From Enterobacter cloacae complex sp. ECNIH7 (GTDB taxonomy: Bacteria > Pseudomonadota > Gammaproteobacteria > Enterobacterales > Enterobacteriaceae): a DNA stretch of 64,000 nt. The notes under the pieces were generated by a model, which was given only the letters and a program-made list of their open reading frames with translations, had not been told where the DNA came from and did not search any database. How positions within the stretch are numbered: position 1 is the first letter of the stretch; each line of letters starts with the position of its first letter. Shown one piece after another: positions 17,770-61,258 of this stretch. The stretch covers positions 1,488,001 through 1,552,000 of the forward strand of contig NZ_CP017990.1 of NCBI RefSeq assembly GCF_002208095.1, read 5' to 3'. Position numbers and translations under genes: made by a program.

Positions 17770-17845
17770 GGGTCGTTAGCTCAGTTGGTAGAGCAGTTGA
17801 CTTTTAATCAATTGGTCGCAGGTTCGAATCCTGCACGACCCACCA
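17770..17845 (+). tRNA. lysT: tRNA-Lys (anticodon TTT)
   Basis: This 76-base cloverleaf has acceptor GGGTCGT paired with ACGACCC, anticodon loop CTTTTAA with TTT, T-loop GGTTCGAATCC and an encoded CCA end. It is first of a five-tRNA cluster. Confidence 0.97.
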
Positions 17846-17870
17846 CTAAGTCAGGTGGAAGTAGTAGTAA

Positions 17871-17944
17871 AACGTGAAGGATAACGTTGCGTCAGCAACG
17901 GCCCGTAGGGCGAGGCGAAGCCGAGTCATCCTGCACGACCCACC
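17871..17944 (+). repeat. tRNA-linked spacer repeat, copy 1
   Basis: This ~74-bp unit begins AACGTGAAGGATAACG, contains several short hairpins (GTTGC/GCAAC; GCCC/GGGC) and ends with TCCTGCACGACCCACC, which copies the 3' end of the tRNA-Lys gene. A second copy lies at 18,152-18,226. It resembles the 3'-tRNA duplications known after tyrT in E. coli. Confidence 0.75.
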
Positions 17945-17971
17945 GCTTAACGCATATCGGCAGTACAGAGT

Positions 17972-18047
17972 GGGTGATTAGCTCAGTTGGTAGAGCATCT
18001 CCTTTACACGGAGGGGGTCGGCGGTTCGAGCCCGTCATCACCCACCA
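17972..18047 (+). tRNA. valT: tRNA-Val (anticodon TAC)
   Basis: This 76-base cloverleaf has acceptor GGGTGAT/ATCACCC, anticodon loop CTTTACA with TAC, T-loop GGTTCGAGCC and encoded CCA. It lies between two tRNA-Lys genes, as in the E. coli lysT-valT-lysW cluster. Confidence 0.97.
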
Positions 18048-18050
18048 CTC

Positions 18051-18126
18051 GGGTCGTTAGCTCAGTTGGTAGAGCAGTTGACTTTTAATCAATTGGTCGC
18101 AGGTTCGAATCCTGCACGACCCACCA
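18051..18126 (+). tRNA. lysW: tRNA-Lys (anticodon TTT)
   Basis: It is identical over 76 bases to the first tRNA-Lys, separated by only three bases from tRNA-Val, so the two are processed from one precursor. Confidence 0.96.
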
Positions 18127-18151
18127 ATTTTAATGTCTTACTCAGATATTA

Positions 18152-18226
18152 AACGTGAAGGATAACGTTGCTTTAGCAACGGCCCGAAGGGCGAGGCGAA
18201 GCCGAGTCATCCTGCACGACCCACCA
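18152..18226 (+). repeat. tRNA-linked spacer repeat, copy 2
   Basis: This is the second copy of the unit at 17,871-17,944, nearly identical, with a loop change (GTTGCTTTAGCAAC). It ends in the tRNA-Lys 3' terminus including CCACCA. It follows lysW by 25 bp. Confidence 0.75.
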
Positions 18227-18267
18227 ATTTTATTGGTTCCGAGTGATAATTCAGGCAACACCCAAAA

Positions 18268-18343
18268 GGGTCGTTAGCTCAGTTGGTAGAGCAGTTGACT
18301 TTTAATCAATTGGTCGCAGGTTCGAATCCTGCACGACCCACCA
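18268..18343 (+). tRNA. tRNA-Lys (anticodon TTT)
   Basis: Third identical tRNA-Lys copy, 76 bases with encoded CCA. Confidence 0.96.
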
Positions 18344-18374
18344 GCCTGAATAAATTTGAAGTACATCCCGCAAG

Positions 18375-18450
18375 GGGTCGTTAGCTCAGTTGGTAGAGCA
18401 GTTGACTTTTAATCAATTGGTCGCAGGTTCGAATCCTGCACGACCCACCA
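18375..18450 (+). tRNA. tRNA-Lys (anticodon TTT)
   Basis: Fourth identical tRNA-Lys copy, followed directly by the cluster terminator. Confidence 0.96.
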
Positions 18451-44392: not shown

Positions 44393-48143
<3,751 letters not shown>

Positions 48144-48151
48144 AATGATAA

Positions 48152-52647
<4,496 letters not shown>

Positions 52648-52703
52648 CCGACAGAGCAGGCGAACAGGCCAGCAACAGGAGTTGTCACGGATAAAGGCGT
52701 ACC

Positions 52704-52988
52704 TCAGTCGGACAGCTTTGCGAAGTACGCCGCGGCTTTTTTTAATATGTCCCGTTCGTCGGTAACCCGTTTCAGCTCTTTCTGGAGACGGCGGATCTCG
52801 GCCTGAGCATCTGACTGTTCTTTATTAGTGGAAGAATCCGGACCGTACTTCTTTATCCAGGCATAAAGGCTGTGGGTGGTGATATCGAGACGTGTTGCAA
52901 CGCTGGCAACAGAATAACCGCGATCAACAACCTGTTTGACTGCTTCAGTTTTAAACTCTTCAGGATAACGCTTACCGCTCATGGGCAC
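52704..52988 (-). CDS. IS3-family OrfA (helix-turn-helix, leucine zipper)
   Basis: The product has 94 residues. The helix-turn-helix (RYPEEFKTEAVKQVVDRG, then SVASVATRLDITTHSLYAWIK, read in part) binds the terminal repeats; a leucine-zipper stretch (IRRLQKELKRVTDERDILKK) follows. It ends just after the slippery A7G run used for OrfAB synthesis. Confidence 0.92.
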   Translation of the reverse strand: MPMSGKRYPEEFKTEAVKQVVDRGYSVASVATRLDITTHSLYAWIKKYGPDSSTNKEQSDAQAEIRRLQKELKRVTDERDILKKAAAYFAKLSD

Positions 52989-53060: not shown

Positions 53061-54752
53061 ATGGCTCAAACATTTTTAGGGAATCTAACTACAGTATGGA
53101 TTAATACCGATACAACCAACGTTGATCCAAATGCCCGTACTTTTGTTCAAGTTGAAAACCTTTCAGCGTTTCCAAGTTTTAGTGAATCAACTTCTGTTTC
53201 AACTGTAGAAACATATGATAGTACTTACACCTCTAAAGTAGCGGGTGATAGTTCATATGGTGATATGACTATTCAAGTTAACTACGTTCCAGGTGAAAAC
53301 GCCGTATTTGATTCTGCTGTTGATTCTCAGCAGTTAGTACAAGTCAAAGTAGAAATGCTTGATGAAGGTTCAAACGATACAACCGTAAACTATGTGCTTT
53401 ATAACGGGTACTTATCCAGCGTATCAGATACGTCAGATATGGATCAGGTTGTTACCCGCTCATACGTATTCACACCAGAAAACCAGGTATCAGCAGGTAT
53501 TCTTGATGAATCTGTAGTTGAACTTTATCGTGGTGATTGGGGCGTTGGTTCGAACGGTAACGAGTTCCCAAGCTATCAAGGCCGTGATGGTAACTCATTC
53601 GTTAAGATCGCAGCAGCCAACGCACCAACAGGTGTTGATATGTTGGGTATCACTAACCTTGATGGTTCTAACGGTACCCAATTAGTAATGAACAAAACCG
53701 GTACGCCAGTACTGAACATTCGTAACTTCTCAACAGCAAGTAACGGGGCATGGTACAAGGTCTACACCAGTGCCGATAAACCAACGTTAACAGAACTTGG
53801 TGCGGCAGCCGCTACAGATCTCAGTAACTACGTACCAATCACACGTACTGTCAATGGTAAAGCACTTACAGCCAACATTACTTTAGTGGCAGCAGATATT
53901 AGTGATGTTTACTCTAAGACCTACATTGATTCAAACATAGTTCCGAAAGTATTCCAGTTAAACGGACACGCATTATCAGGAACGGCGTTGAACTTAGTAG
54001 CCGCAGATATTCTTGATGTGTATTCACAGACTCAGGTTAATAATACCTTTGTTGCTAAAACGGTTACTGTTAATGGATTATCATTAAGTTCTAATATTAC
54101 ATTAACGGCAACACAACTTACTGATATGGCATCATTGGCATTTAGTAATAGTACTTATGTGCCTAAGACGTTCTTAATCAATAACAAGCCATTATCTGGT
54201 ACTAACATTCAATTGGTAGCAGCAGATATTAGTGATGTATATTCCCGTACTGAAAGTAACGGATTGTTTGCGTTACGTATCACTACAATTAACGGTTATG
54301 CTCTTAACAGTAACGTAACCTTGAACTATAACGATGTGGGAACGTATTCAAAAGCACAAATTGATGCTAAAGATGCCGCACTACAAGCGAACATTGATAC
54401 CAAAGTAACTATCACTCAAGACCTTCTAACAATAAATAACGTAGAAGATACTTTAGAACTTGATATGTCTGATGGTAAACGTGTATTCAAAGCAACACTA
54501 ACCGCAGCAGTAACACAACTAAGTGTAATCAATGGCAGTGGAAGCAACTTAAATAGCCAAACTATTACTATGTGTTTAACACAGGGAACAGGGGCAAATA
54601 AAATTTCATGGCCTTCTAATGTTATTTGGTCTTATGGTCGTGAACCAGTATTAACCTTTACTCAGAACTCAATTGATGTGATTCAATTCTTAACTGTCGA
54701 TGGGGGGAGTACCTGGTACGGCTCCTTACTAATGGCGGATCTACAAGAATGA
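53061..54752 (+). CDS. Tail-tube-domain protein fused to tail-fibre repeats
   Basis: The product has 563 residues. Residues ~1-155 resemble the tail tube protein encoded at 57,628 (both have FPSF/FPSA, DMTIQVNY/DLTLTVNW, VYNGYLSS-like YNGYLSSVSD/VNGYVSSDVV, VVTRSYVF/VVTRDFVV). From ~270 a series of fibre-type repeats follows: VNGKALTANITLVAADISDVYS, NGHALSGTALNLVAADILDVYS, INNKPLSGTNIQLVAADISDVYS (each quoted in part), then a beta-rich C-terminal domain. The layout suggests a tube subunit carrying an external adhesin. GGGGAATAATT precedes the ATG, just outside the insertion sequence. Confidence 0.75.
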   Translation: MAQTFLGNLTTVWINTDTTNVDPNARTFVQVENLSAFPSFSESTSVSTVETYDSTYTSKVAGDSSYGDMTIQVNYVPGENAVFDSAVDSQQLVQVKVEMLDEGSNDTTVNYVLYNGYLSSVSDTSDMDQVVTRSYVFTPENQVSAGILDESVVELYRGDWGVGSNGNEFPSYQGRDGNSFVKIAAANAPTGVDMLGITNLDGSNGTQLVMNKTGTPVLNIRNFSTASNGAWYKVYTSADKPTLTELGAAAATDLSNYVPITRTVNGKALTANITLVAADISDVYSKTYIDSNIVPKVFQLNGHALSGTALNLVAADILDVYSQTQVNNTFVAKTVTVNGLSLSSNITLTATQLTDMASLAFSNSTYVPKTFLINNKPLSGTNIQLVAADISDVYSRTESNGLFALRITTINGYALNSNVTLNYNDVGTYSKAQIDAKDAALQANIDTKVTITQDLLTINNVEDTLELDMSDGKRVFKATLTAAVTQLSVINGSGSNLNSQTITMCLTQGTGANKISWPSNVIWSYGREPVLTFTQNSIDVIQFLTVDGGSTWYGSLLMADLQE

Positions 54753-57571
54753 TAAGAAAACAAAATATCAGCAATGCCCAACAGATGATTGAAGGGCATT
54801 GGAAATTTTTAGAACGTAATACGGGTTTAGTTAATGACAATAAAACAGATCATTTTGTACTAAACCCACAAAACGTTTTAGCAAACAACAGGCACTTTAT
54901 AGCGGAAACAGGCTGGGAGGCACAACCGGACGGTGACGCAACCACAGAAGGACAATCCTTAGCAATTCTTGGTGCTATCTATGCGTATCAGGCAACCAAA
55001 GAACCGTACTATCTACAACGTGCTAAAGACTTTTTCAACGCCTATCATTTGGCGTTCTTTCGTGGGGTAGCGTTTCCCGATCCACCTAATGGTTCATTAC
55101 GTTGTAATTGGATCTGTAATGGCAAAGCTCCAGTACTGGCACATTACCCATTAGATCCAGAGTATCCAACTCATGGCGGGTTCAAGGGCGTCTTGTTCAC
55201 ATGGACGAACGGACAAACACAGATACCTCATGGTTCACCTAACTACGGTGAATACCTCGATGCGGTATGGTTTGCCTTTCCAGAAAGGGCGGGTCTTGGT
55301 TGGAACCAGGTTAACGCAACTGCCTACGCATGGTTAGCCAGTGAAGATAGCATTGATTGGGATACTAAAGCCCCTACCTATGATGTTGATTGGATTGTTG
55401 ACCGTACAGGCCGAAAGGTAGATAGCAATGGTGATGTACTGGCAGAAGGGCTAACAAGCCAGATCGGTACAGTCCAGCTTAAAGACACGTCTATAAACGG
55501 CAATTACCGATTCAACTACGCCACGAAGAATCCTGTATCAGAGGGTGGCTATCTCATGGGGCGTAATGAGCGTTGGCACAACAGGCCAGTAAACGTACCT
55601 ATTGATAACTATGGTACGCTCGACTTTTCTGATAACGCCTCAGATGCTGAATTGTGGTTCTGTAAGGCATGTAAATTACTATGGGATATTACAGGCGAAC
55701 GTATCTATTACTTAGCATGGCAGAATTCACTAATTACTTGTACTGGTTATTCTGATATTGATAAATTTGATATGTTCTTTCGTAAGAGTGCTATTGCTTT
55801 AACGCCTTTTACAGATGGTATCTCATACGATTATTTCTATCCAAGTGATCAAGTAGCATCATATTCACGTGATTCAGATGGCTATATTGTCATTAATCAA
55901 AGTGCCTCAGCACAAACAACACTTGAACAACAATCTATATGGTTCAAGTTTAATAATAGTTCATCATTCCATGTTGAATATAGTGGTGTTGATACAACTG
56001 GTAAACCGCTAAGCCTTGCTGTAGCAATGACAGTTAATAAAACTAAAACAGAAGATGGTGCTATTAGATACCGTTGCGGTTTACCCATTACCAATACTGA
56101 CAACAGTATTATATCTATGGATATCCCAATGAACCATTTTACCAGAATTGCTAAACCTGATGGTGGACAGTACTTAACAGCAGATATGCGAATGGTTTCC
56201 GATTATGGGGATAATACAGTAACTTCACTTCAATATGTTTCCGGTATCGCTGGAACGTACTATGACAACGTGATTTCTACTACTATGGATTCTGACGGTA
56301 GTTCTACAGTTGGTTTCTGGATCTTTGATGATGAAACACAGGACTTAAACACCTTCACATATAGAACATATGCTGATGATTTTAACATTCGTATTATTGA
56401 TGATCTCGGTTGGCGTTGGTGGGCTATGCTACCAGCAAGCAACGGGGCATGGGTAACACAAACGTTTAATGTACTGGATTTTAAATTGAGTTCTTATCAA
56501 CCGGATCATGAAGAAGGTGATGAACAGCCAGGACAACCAACACTAACAGGACGTGAAGAGTTTACACTATTACTTGATACCGATCCGGTTGATGGTGTCT
56601 CAGGTCGTATTGACTGGTATTGTGTTAACGATTTGCCAGCACTTTATAATGATGGTGGTACAGGTGATTATTCAGTACTGGTTTCTCTAACTTTCAACGA
56701 TAGTACCAGTAGTGGATATACAGCACGTTTAGGTGATTGTGTAATTCGTAATTACATGCTTGATAGTTTGTCATATACACCCGGACTAATACCATTTAGT
56801 AACATCACAGATCCATATGCTCAACTGTATTCCGGTTGGCGTGGTCTACCATATCCAGGTTATCAACTACCCGCTATATGGTGTTTCAAAGGTACTACAA
56901 TTGATCAAACCAGACTAAATAATAGTATTAAGTTCTTATGTGATGCTCAAGATTGGTTTACTAATAAATTCCATCCTACTTTACCTGGTCCATGTGCTCA
57001 GGCTTATGTATGGAACCGTCAGGACGCATTAGCATATTCACCTGATGGACAACCAGATCAATTTATTATGCAGCACTGGTATGAAGAAGCATGGTCAGGT
57101 TATGAACCTCGTGCGTTCTTTGGTGGTTGTGATGTAGTCCATGAACTATATCAACGTGGTGATTATGCTATTCCGCAGAACATTATTACGTACTGTCAAA
57201 ACTGGATGAATTACTTGAAGTGGTTCATGAAAAATAATGATGGTCACGCACCAACACGATTTAAAGATGATGGTGAAGTTATCTATGATGGCTTTACGGG
57301 TCATATGTCTGGTTTATGGCTTGCTGGTGCTTCAATGATGGCAATAGCAGGTTATCCAGATCACGAATTACTTGATTTACTATTCGCGGAAATTCAACAG
57401 AACTATAACGTAGTTTCAGCTAATCACGTAATGAATGGTGGCTGGTCATCAGCTATCAGAAGTGGAACACCTACAACACCACAGAACAATTCAATGTTCT
57501 TTGGATTCTATACAGGTGAACTACTAAGAGGTTTAGCACTTTACATGAAGTACTACAACCAACATATATAA
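54749..57571 (+). CDS. Large putative carbohydrate-active tail protein, family not recognised
   Basis: The product has 940 residues and no signal peptide. The N-terminal ~350 and C-terminal ~290 residues are helical and Trp/Tyr/aromatic-rich, with patterns reminiscent of (alpha/alpha)6-barrel glycan-processing enzymes (ATTEGQSLAILGAIYAYQAT; GGCDVVHELYQRGDY; HMSGLWLAGASMMAIAGYPD). The middle (~370-640) is beta-rich. Candidate acids lie in SPNYGEYLDAVW and HWYEEAW. Its ATG overlaps the stop of the tube-fibre gene (ATGA), so the two are coupled. A capsule or O-antigen depolymerase role is inference. Confidence 0.5.
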   Translation: MIRKQNISNAQQMIEGHWKFLERNTGLVNDNKTDHFVLNPQNVLANNRHFIAETGWEAQPDGDATTEGQSLAILGAIYAYQATKEPYYLQRAKDFFNAYHLAFFRGVAFPDPPNGSLRCNWICNGKAPVLAHYPLDPEYPTHGGFKGVLFTWTNGQTQIPHGSPNYGEYLDAVWFAFPERAGLGWNQVNATAYAWLASEDSIDWDTKAPTYDVDWIVDRTGRKVDSNGDVLAEGLTSQIGTVQLKDTSINGNYRFNYATKNPVSEGGYLMGRNERWHNRPVNVPIDNYGTLDFSDNASDAELWFCKACKLLWDITGERIYYLAWQNSLITCTGYSDIDKFDMFFRKSAIALTPFTDGISYDYFYPSDQVASYSRDSDGYIVINQSASAQTTLEQQSIWFKFNNSSSFHVEYSGVDTTGKPLSLAVAMTVNKTKTEDGAIRYRCGLPITNTDNSIISMDIPMNHFTRIAKPDGGQYLTADMRMVSDYGDNTVTSLQYVSGIAGTYYDNVISTTMDSDGSSTVGFWIFDDETQDLNTFTYRTYADDFNIRIIDDLGWRWWAMLPASNGAWVTQTFNVLDFKLSSYQPDHEEGDEQPGQPTLTGREEFTLLLDTDPVDGVSGRIDWYCVNDLPALYNDGGTGDYSVLVSLTFNDSTSSGYTARLGDCVIRNYMLDSLSYTPGLIPFSNITDPYAQLYSGWRGLPYPGYQLPAIWCFKGTTIDQTRLNNSIKFLCDAQDWFTNKFHPTLPGPCAQAYVWNRQDALAYSPDGQPDQFIMQHWYEEAWSGYEPRAFFGGCDVVHELYQRGDYAIPQNIITYCQNWMNYLKWFMKNNDGHAPTRFKDDGEVIYDGFTGHMSGLWLAGASMMAIAGYPDHELLDLLFAEIQQNYNVVSANHVMNGGWSSAIRSGTPTTPQNNSMFFGFYTGELLRGLALYMKYYNQHI

Positions 57572-57627: not shown

Positions 57628-58101
57628 ATGGCTTTTAATTCTATTTTTGTAGGCAATAATGTCAAAGTGGAAATCGCAACTGCTCCTACTGGTGGTGGTC
57701 AGGCAACTACCTTTACTGTTGTTGAAGAAGTTGGTGCTTTTCCATCAGCGGCAGGTGCTGAATCTAACGTTGTGAGTGTAAACACTTTCGGTCAACAGTA
57801 CGCTAAGAAATTGCTTGGTTCTCGTTCAGTACCGGATCTAACTCTAACTGTTAACTGGAAACCAGGTGCTGTAGGTCAAGAAATGCTTGCCGCAGCCGCA
57901 GCAGCACAAACCCTAATTCAAGTTAAAGTAACTTATTTCCAGAAGATTGATGATCAAGATGGTGCGGCTTATTACAGCATCGTAAACGGTTATGTAAGTT
58001 CAGATGTAGTTAACGGTGATTTTGATGGTGTGGTAACTCGTGATTTCGTAGTTTCTGTTACTGGTGCTCCAATTGCGGTTGGTGAAGTTACTGGTTCTTA
58101 A
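57628..58101 (+). CDS. Major tail tube protein
   Basis: The product has 157 residues. It starts MAFNSIFVGNNVKVEIAT and is beta-rich, with DLTLTVNWKPGAVGQEML and VVTRDFVVSVTG. Size and place, directly before the gpG/gpT genes and the tape measure, fit a lambda gpV-type tube protein. It is paralogous to the N-terminus of the 53,061 gene. The ATG at 57628 has AAGGAATATTAAAC upstream; an in-frame ATG at 57595 adds 11 residues and is less likely. Confidence 0.8.
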   Translation: MAFNSIFVGNNVKVEIATAPTGGGQATTFTVVEEVGAFPSAAGAESNVVSVNTFGQQYAKKLLGSRSVPDLTLTVNWKPGAVGQEMLAAAAAAQTLIQVKVTYFQKIDDQDGAAYYSIVNGYVSSDVVNGDFDGVVTRDFVVSVTGAPIAVGEVTGS

Positions 58102-58150: not shown

Positions 58151-58441
58151 ATGGATTTTACTAATCTTATGACAGCTATTGGTGTGAAGTTAACACCAGT
58201 AGAACTAACACCAGAATGTACTGTATACATCAAACTACCATCAATTACCCAACACGCAGAAGTTTCAGATCCATATAAAGCGATCTTCTATTGTGTGGTT
58301 GATGAAAGTGGTAAACAGATTTTTGATTCACCTGAACAAGTTGAACAGAATGTTGATTTAACAGTACAATTAAAACTAAATGCCGAGATCGGTAAAGTGT
58401 TTGCCAAATCCTTTAATGTTGAGGATGTTGAGGCAAAGTAA
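58151..58441 (+). CDS. Tail assembly chaperone, gpG-like
   Basis: The product has 96 residues, acidic, located between tail tube and tape measure as lambda G. It ends VEDVEAK then TAA, directly at a candidate slippery sequence (GGCAAAG, 58,432-58,438). The role would be to hold the tape measure protein during tail assembly. AAGGATAAAGCG precedes the ATG. Confidence 0.75.
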   Translation: MDFTNLMTAIGVKLTPVELTPECTVYIKLPSITQHAEVSDPYKAIFYCVVDESGKQIFDSPEQVEQNVDLTVQLKLNAEIGKVFAKSFNVEDVEAK

Positions 58442-58809
58442 GACGCGATCCGATTCTCAGACTATCACTATCTTTATTGTATAACAGCGGGTGTAGTGTG
58501 GATGATCTCTACACTATGCCCGTTTTGCTTTTCTTCTACCTATTAGTTTTCAAAGAATCGGTTGATCCTGATTCATCACAAATTGAACAAATCAGGCATA
58601 CAGAACTATTACAGGCAATATGGTTAAGTACTGGCAATATCAAGAAAGAAGATATACCGAAATTTAGTATCTATGAACTCGATTCATTGAACATCATTTC
58701 AAATAAAACCTTAGCTGAACAACACGCAGAAAGGGAGAAGAAGATCGCAGATCAACAAAAAGCAAACATGCTTAATTGGATGGGAGTAAAGCCAAATGGC
58801 AAACAATAA
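58432..58809 (+). CDS. gpT-like extension of the tail chaperone, made by -1 frameshifting
   Basis: The frame is open from the slippery site to 58,809, which overlaps the tape measure start by 14 bases. It has no ATG near its beginning; a TTG at 58,477 is the only plausible independent start. A -1 shift on GGCAAAG would join gpG to VRRDPILRLSLSLLYNSG and the rest (YTMPVLLFFYLLVFKES to GVKPNGKQ). This is the classic G-GT arrangement of long-tailed phages. Confidence 0.7.
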   Translation, partial: GKVRRDPILRLSLSLLYNSGCSVDDLYTMPVLLFFYLLVFKESVDPDSSQIEQIRHTELLQAIWLSTGNIKKEDIPKFSIYELDSLNIISNKTLAEQHAEREKKIADQQKANMLNWMGVKPNGKQ

Positions 58810-61258
58810 TAAACAATCAATGATATTTGAAATCACAGGTGATGAATCTGGATTACAAAAATCATTAAAAAACGCAGCAAATGATATAGGTGATTTTGGT
58901 GATCGTGCTGGCGGGGTGTTTGGTGGTTTCAATACCGGACTATCAACCACGGCTAAAGCTATGTCTGGTTTCGCTGGTGCGGTAGGGGTCGCAGGTATCG
59001 CCATTGCCGCCACTTTAGCTAACGTACAAGAACAATCAGAAAAGGCGTTTGAAGTCTTTCAGGCAGCATCACTATCACAAACTGGCATAGTACAGATCCA
59101 ACAGGCAGCTAATATGTTTGCGTCCGTAGGTCTGACTATGGATCAAGTAGCCGACCAGATGAAAGATGCTAAGGATAAGTTAGGCGATGCTATCACTAAT
59201 AACGCTGGTTCTATGCTAACCGATGTAATTCAACCATTGAAGTTAAATATGTTTGAGTTACAGAAAGCAGCAGAAAGTGGTGAAGATATTATTGCTAAGA
59301 TTTACTATCAAGCTAAACAAATGGGCTTTAGTCAGGCTCAGATTGTACAGATGATGGAAACTGTAGCTAACGATGCTACTAAACGCATGACTGTATATAG
59401 AGAATTCAGTACTGAACAAGAGTACCAAAATAGCCTTGCTAATGAAAATATTCAGTTAACGGCAGAGCAATCACGACAATTTGAAGAATATAGAACGGCA
59501 ACGAATAATCTATCAAGAGCATGGGATACGTGGCGAAATTCAACACTTGCCCCTGTTGCTAAAAGTCTTGCTGATATTCTTGATCTAATGACTAAGATAC
59601 TCAACAGTAAGCCAGTGGCAGCAGCCGCAGCAGCTACGAGTAAGCAGGGGATACAGGCAGTACAGGAATACCAACAACAGTACCAACAACAGATTCAGAA
59701 AAACTCGTCTATCTATGGTGCTCAGGTGGTAGAAGAACAGCAGAAGCAACAAGAAGCTAATAATAAGACTTTTGAAAATCTTTTAGCAAATATTGATGCC
59801 GCACATAATCTTTTAGCCAAACAACAAGAGCAATATAACAAGGGTTCAGATAAGAGTGTTATTGATTCAGCGTTGAAACCTTATCTATCAGCGAAGCAAA
59901 AGACACAAGCACAGATTGATACTCTTGATGCTACTCACCAACAACTACGAGCAACGATTAAAGAGTCTTTAGCACGTGCTTACAAAGGTGATGAAGCGGC
60001 AATGAATGCCGATTTAGCTAAACTTGATGAAGGTTATAAAGCTAACCGTGAGAAGTTAGTAAAAAGCCTAACAGCCGATGAAGATAAAGCACGTGAAGAT
60101 AAAGCAAAGAAAGATGAAGCAGCAGCCAAGAAAGCACAAGCCGCACAAGATAAGATTAATGAACAAACTAAAAGAGCAAAAGCACTATTAGAACAAACCT
60201 TATCACAGATCGGTACTAACGAAGCACAGATACGTATTATTCGTTTTAACTATGAACAAGATGAAATTGAAAAACGTATCAGTACAGCAGGTAAATTAGC
60301 TGGTAAGAATGAAACTGAAATTACAGCAATGTTAGATCAGCAATATAAAAGCCGTGCGACTAAGTACAAAACTATGGTTGATGAAATGCTTGCTGAAACA
60401 GACCGTTTAAAACAAGCACAAAATATTGCCGCAATTGCCAGTGATCCGAATGCCACACCAGAGGCTAAGGCCAAAGCAGCAGCAGCGGGTAAGACGTGGA
60501 CAGGTGACACAGCAAGTCAGGGATTAGGGTACAAGAACCCGTTGGACTTCTCACCAGATCCAACACAGGTACAGCAAGTAAGTACTGAACAGCAAGAGAA
60601 CCAGGATGGGGCTAAAGCTCTATACGATGCCAAAGTAATTGGATTCCAGGAGTACCAGGATCAGCTAACAGCGATTCAGGCCAACGCCGATATCAAACGT
60701 GGGCGATTAACCGCAGACGCACTATCAAACACTTTAGGTATGTGGGCTACTGGTGCGGGTGATGTAGGAACTATCATGGCTGGCGTGTTCGGAGAGTCCT
60801 CGGCAGCGGCTAAGGCAGCTTTTGCCGTAAGTAAAGGTATTGCCATTGCTCAGGCAGTGATCAACATCCAACAGGGCATATCCGAGGCTATCAAACTTGG
60901 TTGGCCTATGGGGATCGCCGCAGGTCTACAGGTAGCCGCACAGGGTGCTCAACTGGTCAGTACTATCAAAGGTACAACTATTCAGGGTCAAGCCCATGAT
61001 GGTTGGGATTCACTACCAAGTACTGGTACTTACAATCTTGAAAAAGGTGAACGTGTAGTAGGTAAATCATTGAACCAGGATCTAACTAAGTATCTAAGCA
61101 ATCAAGATAGCGGTGGTACTGGTGATATTAAAATTGACGCACCGTTAATTATTAATAGTAATGGTCAGATTTCCGATGCTGATTTTCAAAAGATGTGTGA
61201 TAAACACGCCGATACTATTGTACAGGCAACACGTAAATCTCAGAAGAATAACGTATAA
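58796..61258 (+). CDS. Tail tape measure protein
   Basis: The product has 820 residues, mostly helical. It has Gly/Ala-rich hydrophobic stretches (AMSGFAGAVGVAGIAIAATL; a second near AGDVGTIMAGVFGESSAAAKAAFAVSK, read in part) and long Gln/Lys/Glu coiled-coil regions (~300-560). It sets tail length; at about 1.5 angstrom per residue this gives a tail near 120 nm, an inference. It overlaps the end of the gpT-like frame. A long tail with this gene fits a siphovirus. Confidence 0.9.
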   Translation: MANNNKQSMIFEITGDESGLQKSLKNAANDIGDFGDRAGGVFGGFNTGLSTTAKAMSGFAGAVGVAGIAIAATLANVQEQSEKAFEVFQAASLSQTGIVQIQQAANMFASVGLTMDQVADQMKDAKDKLGDAITNNAGSMLTDVIQPLKLNMFELQKAAESGEDIIAKIYYQAKQMGFSQAQIVQMMETVANDATKRMTVYREFSTEQEYQNSLANENIQLTAEQSRQFEEYRTATNNLSRAWDTWRNSTLAPVAKSLADILDLMTKILNSKPVAAAAAATSKQGIQAVQEYQQQYQQQIQKNSSIYGAQVVEEQQKQQEANNKTFENLLANIDAAHNLLAKQQEQYNKGSDKSVIDSALKPYLSAKQKTQAQIDTLDATHQQLRATIKESLARAYKGDEAAMNADLAKLDEGYKANREKLVKSLTADEDKAREDKAKKDEAAAKKAQAAQDKINEQTKRAKALLEQTLSQIGTNEAQIRIIRFNYEQDEIEKRISTAGKLAGKNETEITAMLDQQYKSRATKYKTMVDEMLAETDRLKQAQNIAAIASDPNATPEAKAKAAAAGKTWTGDTASQGLGYKNPLDFSPDPTQVQQVSTEQQENQDGAKALYDAKVIGFQEYQDQLTAIQANADIKRGRLTADALSNTLGMWATGAGDVGTIMAGVFGESSAAAKAAFAVSKGIAIAQAVINIQQGISEAIKLGWPMGIAAGLQVAAQGAQLVSTIKGTTIQGQAHDGWDSLPSTGTYNLEKGERVVGKSLNQDLTKYLSNQDSGGTGDIKIDAPLIINSNGQISDADFQKMCDKHADTIVQATRKSQKNNV

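Follow-up and report, generated by a model that had tools for sequence, protein, structure and literature searches.

We analyzed a tail-gene locus in a lambda-like, siphophage-type prophage of Enterobacter cloacae complex sp. ECNIH7, contained in a 64,000-nucleotide stretch of contig NZ_CP017990.1 (positions 1,488,001 to 1,552,000; here called the window). Both reading frames that a first-pass annotation of this DNA had claimed, for a 563-residue and a 940-residue protein, were found (Table 1). We refer to the first as TF, a tube/fiber fusion, to the second as G940, and to the ordinary tail tube protein encoded behind them as TTP. TF and G940 share a four-base ATGA overlap, which supports the proposed translational coupling. 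The TTP start at 57,628 is probably right as well, since this ATG is where the alignment with the shorter frames of several relatives begins. A promoter scan of the region returned 9 candidates against 17.0 expected; there is no excess, and the relative expression of TF and TTP therefore cannot be read from the sequence.

The N-terminal part of TF is a tail tube domain by similarity and by predicted fold. Residues 5 to 136 are 37 to 38% identical to TTP, and PHROG 158 ("major tail protein") matches both TF (E = 7e-21) and TTP (E = 5e-16), confirming a resemblance that had been noticed by the first-pass annotation. The Pfam model Phage_TTP_12 scored 16.9 bits against the tube domain, below its cut-off of 26.1, and NCBIfam gave no match for the domain. 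The predicted structure of the first 150 residues resembles lambda gpV, indicating a gpV-type tube fold; failure to fold as a tail tube, which the first-pass annotation had named as a refuting outcome, did not occur. Few gaps interrupt the alignment of the domain with TTP, which extends through the presumed stacking loop. Farther along, TF contains repeats spaced 36 to 37 residues apart, and the self-similarity at a lag of 37 residues was reached by 0 of 1,000 shuffles. At least four such fiber repeats had been claimed; five can be seen by eye, four of which are caught by one pattern. Near the C terminus, residues 440 to 559 match PHROG 7760 (E = 6e-28).

G940 is homologous over its full length to the phi92 gp141 family, matching PHROG 2871 with 1,224 bits over residues 4 to 938, and is 56% identical to its homologue in phage GAP31. 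Structure prediction confidently gives G940 the fold of an (alpha/alpha)-barrel glycosidase into which beta-sandwich domains are inserted, the barrel being of the (alpha/alpha)6 type seen in glycoside hydrolase (GH) families GH8 and GH48. This assignment was made from VIA-align rows. Foldseek rows against the PDB were set aside; most were whole-length matches with low TM-scores and included unrelated beta-rich proteins and toxins. The barrel-like, glycan-active fold first suspected for the 940-residue protein is thus supported by prediction. The same annotation had named a match to a structural tail protein lacking a catalytic fold as the outcome that would speak against it; G940 does belong to a known tail-protein family, yet the glycosidase fold is present.

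It is possible that G940 is catalytically dead and serves only to bind glycans. Neither Pfam nor NCBIfam matched the protein, a search against PDB profiles gave one weak match (a GH76 enzyme, E = 0.025), HHalign found no relation to GH8, and strict GH8-like signatures occur in order in just 24 of 57 family members, all of which would suit such a protein. On the other hand, two residues where a barrel helix begins, E67 and D63, never vary among the members (57 of 57). The strict signatures in order arose in 4 of 100,000 shuffles, for a pattern chosen after the sequence had been seen, and were present in 5 of 65 phage-locus open reading frames (ORFs) longer than 300 aa, every one a G940 homologue. 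Pairwise alignment gave a mixed picture: it placed the signature glutamate on the GH8 glutamate in 23 of the 57 members with a 130-aa segment and in 34 with a shorter segment, and placed the second signature aspartate in 48. We consider a purely binding role for G940 doubtful.

The family is large, with homologues in 504 of the 50,697 phage records of INPHARED, and in the loci inspected its members nearly always stand beside a partner gene. We built a hidden Markov model (HMM) from six TFs, using their last 125 residues, and searched 703 ORFs with it; these came from 13 phage loci picked for spread. Eleven ORFs matched, each directly upstream of a G940 homologue, so that a search for the pair in other phages recovered G940 with its partner domain in 11 of the 12 loci that have a G940 homologue, or in 10 of 11 without GAP31, which had been picked via a TF match. 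The sole locus without a partner-domain gene is that of Goslar, whose G940 protein (1,198 aa) is longer than most and carries an N-terminal extension before the G940 match. In several phages the two genes overlap by one or four bases. The phi92 gp140-gp141 pair of Vequintavirinae, Stephanstirmvirinae, Rosemountvirus, and others therefore resembles TF-G940 in that the G940 homologue is preceded by a gene with the TF-type C-terminal domain. It differs in what stands ahead of that domain: a Tail_spike_N adaptor in GAP31, a T7-fiber-type domain in the podophage Atoyac23 (according to a record note), or short stretches in phi92-like phages, whereas in the siphophage-type prophage of the window it is a tail-tube paralogue. 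Some database proteins appear by eye to hold G940 and similar repeats in one chain (P0080 and P0075), and P0080 matches PHROGs 23008 and 17472, as does TF. The simplest reading of these sequences would be a two-gene logic composed of a variable anchor, a constant partner domain, and G940. In virion preparations of the myophage S144, electrospray ionization tandem mass spectrometry detected both proteins of the pair, gp16 with 3 unique peptides and gp17 with 25; the same list also holds some nonstructural proteins, which makes detection good but imperfect proof (PMC7432712).

Two further observations concern the family. Twenty-three records named as Campylobacter phages match G940; the listed H98 and H99 are 30.6 to 30.7% identical to it, like Escherichia rV5-type records, and the host label may be wrong. 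Erwinia phage Hena2 (L117, 3053 to 4585) has a second G940-like piece of 510 aa upstream of the pair, annotated as a proximal tail fiber subunit.

The order TF-G940-TTP is strictly conserved. Relatives were gathered with G940, TTP, and TF as queries, and the counts thus show stability within the phage group, not the frequency of the group. In one count of 48 loci, G940 was matched in 47, and the other (L073) ends before G940. TF with its tube domain lies directly before G940 in 42 of 42 loci with upstream DNA, TTP lies directly after G940 in 42 of 42 loci with downstream DNA, and the full order is kept in 38 of 38 loci with both flanks. This arrangement is beyond chance, and the placement of the pair among the tube genes, which had struck the first annotator as unusual, is shared by all relatives in which it could be scored.

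On the head side, the relatives encode a probable small terminase, terminase, a small gene, portal, a protease-capsid protein, a gene of 97 to 99 aa with a weak match to the head closure protein Hc1, and a 145-aa gene that, by position only, is probably the tail terminator. TF, G940, and TTP follow, and then come two chaperone-like genes, the tape measure, Dit, hub, a DUF6950 gene, J, and lysis-type genes. The names of the portal and terminase genes come partly from the annotation of E. coli N61. In L009, L013, and L014 the capsids are 36 to 39% identical to that of the window, and TF and G940 are 95 to 97% identical. The two connector genes of these three loci are 92 to 96% and 83 to 94% identical to those of L007. 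Since the connectors go with the tail in these loci, TF belongs to the tail module. The breakpoint between head and tail lies between the capsid gene and the Hc1-like gene in the same three loci. Together with L011, they have head modules very different from that of L007 and nearly the same tail module.

The phage group is rare in species-level genome sets. A tube-profile search of 394 genomes of the order found the fusion in the ECNIH7 genome alone, two other, weaker matches falling in short frames (165 and 145 residues), and the same search of 398 genomes of the phylum found the two genes of ECNIH7 only. The TF tube domain alone had no match at E values up to 1 in the 50,697 INPHARED phage records, and TTP matched DCP80 only.

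Table 1. Features of the tail locus and neighboring genes in the window
Feature	Coordinates	Strand	Basis or remark
TF, tube-domain/fiber fusion gene	53061..54752	+	563 aa; matches PHROG 158, 7760, 9017; kept in relatives
TF N-terminal tail-tube domain, residues 1-150 (about)	53061..53510	+	Predicted fold
TF linker domain, residues about 157-248, common to TF and DCP80	53529..53804	+	tblastn alignment of residues 1-248 to DCP80
TF fiber repeats, five of 36-37 aa	53835..54380	+	Periodicity test; 4 pattern matches; fifth by eye
TF C-terminal partner domain, last 125 aa	54375..54749	+	HMM; the partner that stays constant in the G940 family
G940, putative glycosidase of (alpha/alpha)-barrel fold; beta-sandwich inserts resemble carbohydrate-binding modules	54749..57571	+	940 aa; PHROG 2871 / phi92 gp141 family
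TTP	57628..58101 (open frame from 57595)	+	PHROG 158; alignment with relatives
Two small genes, tail-assembly-chaperone position	58151..58809	+	First: Pfam Phage_TAC_13, subthreshold; second: position only
Tape measure protein	58796..61258	+	PHROG 13674
Protease-capsid fusion, truncated by insertion sequence (IS) element	50144..51838	+	PHROG 617
IS3-type element	51835..52988, or to 53040 (right edge judged by eye)	-	rve and HTH_Tnp_1 domains; comparison with L004

DCP80 carries the same tube mount with a different outer part. The start of this record encodes a terminase, a capsid-type gene, a 140-aa gene, a 698-aa tube-fiber fusion, a 745-aa protein, and a tube gene, and the 745-aa protein has an N terminus like that of T4 long tail fibers. 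DCP80 was also the 13th locus of the HMM search, and the stretch of it examined lacked both the C-terminal domain of TF and any G940 homologue. A protein search with the DCP80 tube fusion found three proteins, and searches of IMG/VR for DCP80-type arrangements found none. From one record, three database proteins, and the tree, a thin case can be made that the tube anchor predates the cargo that it now carries. The record itself (L071/L110; 140,978 bases, filed under Straboviridae) opens with a lambda-like siphophage region, goes on with T4-type genes (motA and rIIA), and may be a chimeric assembly.

The pair might also have reached the tube locus as a chance insertion of a fiber cassette, a moron that contributes nothing to the virion, and the prophage of the window is indeed broken in at least two places. 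This explanation is very improbable. Every relative with upstream DNA (42 of 42) carries TF, across more than one head lineage, and DCP80 has a counterpart with another payload, the tube duplication being apparently older than the split from DCP80.

TF-G940 is the only candidate side fiber found besides J. The E. coli N61 prophage is the one that could be followed from end to end, and seven genes lie after J there; five of these were run against PHROGs with no fiber-family match, and the other two encode 90 and 225 aa. The frames or annotated genes after J in the ECNIH7 genome and in DCP80 are short up to the lysozyme or endolysin, and no fiber-family search of them was made.

We propose, with a probability of roughly 0.7, that TF and G940 form a two-component, glycan-active side fiber whose anchor in the tail tube wall is a tube paralogue dedicated to that role. 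The N-terminal domain of TF would be built into the tube wall, and its linker and repeats, judging by the repeat type, would form a short, probably trimeric shaft. The conserved pairing suggests that the TF C-terminal domain holds G940. With its predicted fold, G940 would bind and probably trim surface polysaccharide, which could let the J tip protein reach its receptor. The tube paralogue would be the stable anchor and the outer part exchangeable, as in DCP80.

Several points weigh against this proposal. The full-length prediction of TF is poor (mean predicted local distance difference test score of 43), leaving the shaft and the C-terminal fold without a model, and binding of TF to G940 is presumed from sequence. 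HHalign gave a probability of about 0.1% for G940 against host GH8 proteins, with both alignments shallow, and the two signature segments reached a shuffle P of ≤0.01 in 0 and 5 of the 57 members, being nonsignificant for most. The DCP80 branches in the tree are long, making the placement of DCP80 and the age of the duplication unsure. Lastly, a tube domain in an end ring could decorate nothing along the shaft.

The position of the fiber on the tail can be ordered only as a guess: one or a few head-proximal rings, then scattered along the shaft, and then near the tip. The head end is favored because of the gene order and because the pair lies between the neck-connector and the sheath/tube genes in the myophages SE13 and S144. 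In its narrowest form, TF would make a single specialized ring, a hexamer placed where the tail terminator gives way to the ordinary tube, with its fibers forming a neck collar like the lactococcal neck passage structure. The location of TF between the 145-aa gene, a terminator by position only, and G940-TTP agrees with this, as does the parallel in SE13 and S144, and neck fibers with glycan-binding or hydrolase-like ends are described in PMC6669499. Gene order merely hints at position, however, and the whole tube domain is kept, with the presumed stacking loop and few gaps relative to TTP, which would fit stacking on both faces. We put a single neck ring at somewhat short of even odds.

The first-pass annotation had instead read the locus as a decorated tube, in which minority tube subunits display an adhesin or enzyme along the shaft. 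Its core is supported by the tube fold, the glycosidase fold, and the conserved gene order; "along the shaft" and "minority" do not follow, as a single ring at the neck or tip end fits equally. TF subunits scattered among TTP rings would agree with the 37 to 38% identity to TTP over the whole domain. There are also precedents, since SPP1 tubes mix two tube proteins at 3:1 (PMC8718954) and some 936 phages have carbohydrate-binding modules on extended tube proteins (PMC6669499). These cases depend on frameshifting within a single gene and involve no paralogue, and coassembly of TF and TTP in one ring is hypothetical; scattering along the shaft is a tentative possibility, and we lean against it. 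A stronger form, which we regard as unlikely, is that the shaft itself bears the enzyme: the tube paralogue would be mixed into the tube, with many exchangeable glycosidase fibers along its length and no side fiber at the tip, and the whole tail would work through capsule or polysaccharide.

Glycosidase-type tail fibers are already known, and siphophage side fibers are usually regarded as parts of the tip or baseplate. Outward domains of glycan-binding or adhesin type on tube subunits are known from TpeX, the extended major tail proteins of 936 phages with carbohydrate-binding modules (PMC6669499), and from SPP1 gp17.1, whose form extended by an FN3 domain is present at 3:1 (PMC8718954). Those extensions are described as products of programmed frameshifting, whereas TF, a paralogue in its own right, is encoded two genes ahead of TTP and brings a fiber shaft; the glycosidase-fold protein has a gene of its own. 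The neck passage structure of 936 phages is similar in having neck fibers that end in a trimeric carbohydrate-binding module or a hydrolase/lyase-like end; no tube domain was noted in the description (PMC6669499). Lambda gpV and T5 pb6 likewise have a decoration, an Ig-like domain at the C terminus, attached to a tube domain of this fold (PMC8718954), but it belongs to the main tube protein and brings neither an enzyme nor a fiber shaft. In searches of open-licence papers we recognized no tube-fiber fusion or second tube gene serving as a fiber anchor. Outward tube domains were known before; what appears to be new, going by those searches, is the proposed use of a separate tube paralogue to anchor a two-gene glycosidase fiber. 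If the proposal is true, tube rings would be general mounting points for adhesins and enzymes, as the DCP80 payload suggests. The poorly understood phi92 gp141 tail family would be linked to a clear two-gene logic. The place of the fiber and its substrate would be directly testable in an inducible prophage.

The prophage of the window is defective, and intact copies of its damaged genes are present in relatives. An IS3-type element stands where the capsid gene should end and has also replaced the Hc1-like gene and almost the entire terminator-like gene, with about 0.9 kb lost relative to the nearly identical L004; the match to the 608-aa capsid protein of L004 stops at residue 558. A Mutator-family transposase gene (46268 to 47476, minus strand) lies inside the frame of the terminase large subunit, which is an uninterrupted 629 aa in close relatives. 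J of the ECNIH7 genome (L121, 911 to 4440) comprises 1,020 aa with a separate 109-aa frame behind it, compared with 1,175 aa in L025; the 109-aa frame may be the rest of J, and the tip protein may thus be broken too. TF and G940 of the window are full length, as in relatives. In E. coli N61 an IS3 element lies in the 3' part of the G940 gene (L109, 23558 to 24720), and G940 of L062 is split too. The N61 prophage also encodes a SMODS nucleotidyltransferase beside a SLATT-domain protein (L109, 11162 to 12444), likely a defense pair. Elsewhere in the window, five tRNA genes, four for Lys (ttt) and one for Val (tac), are located at 17770 to 18450.
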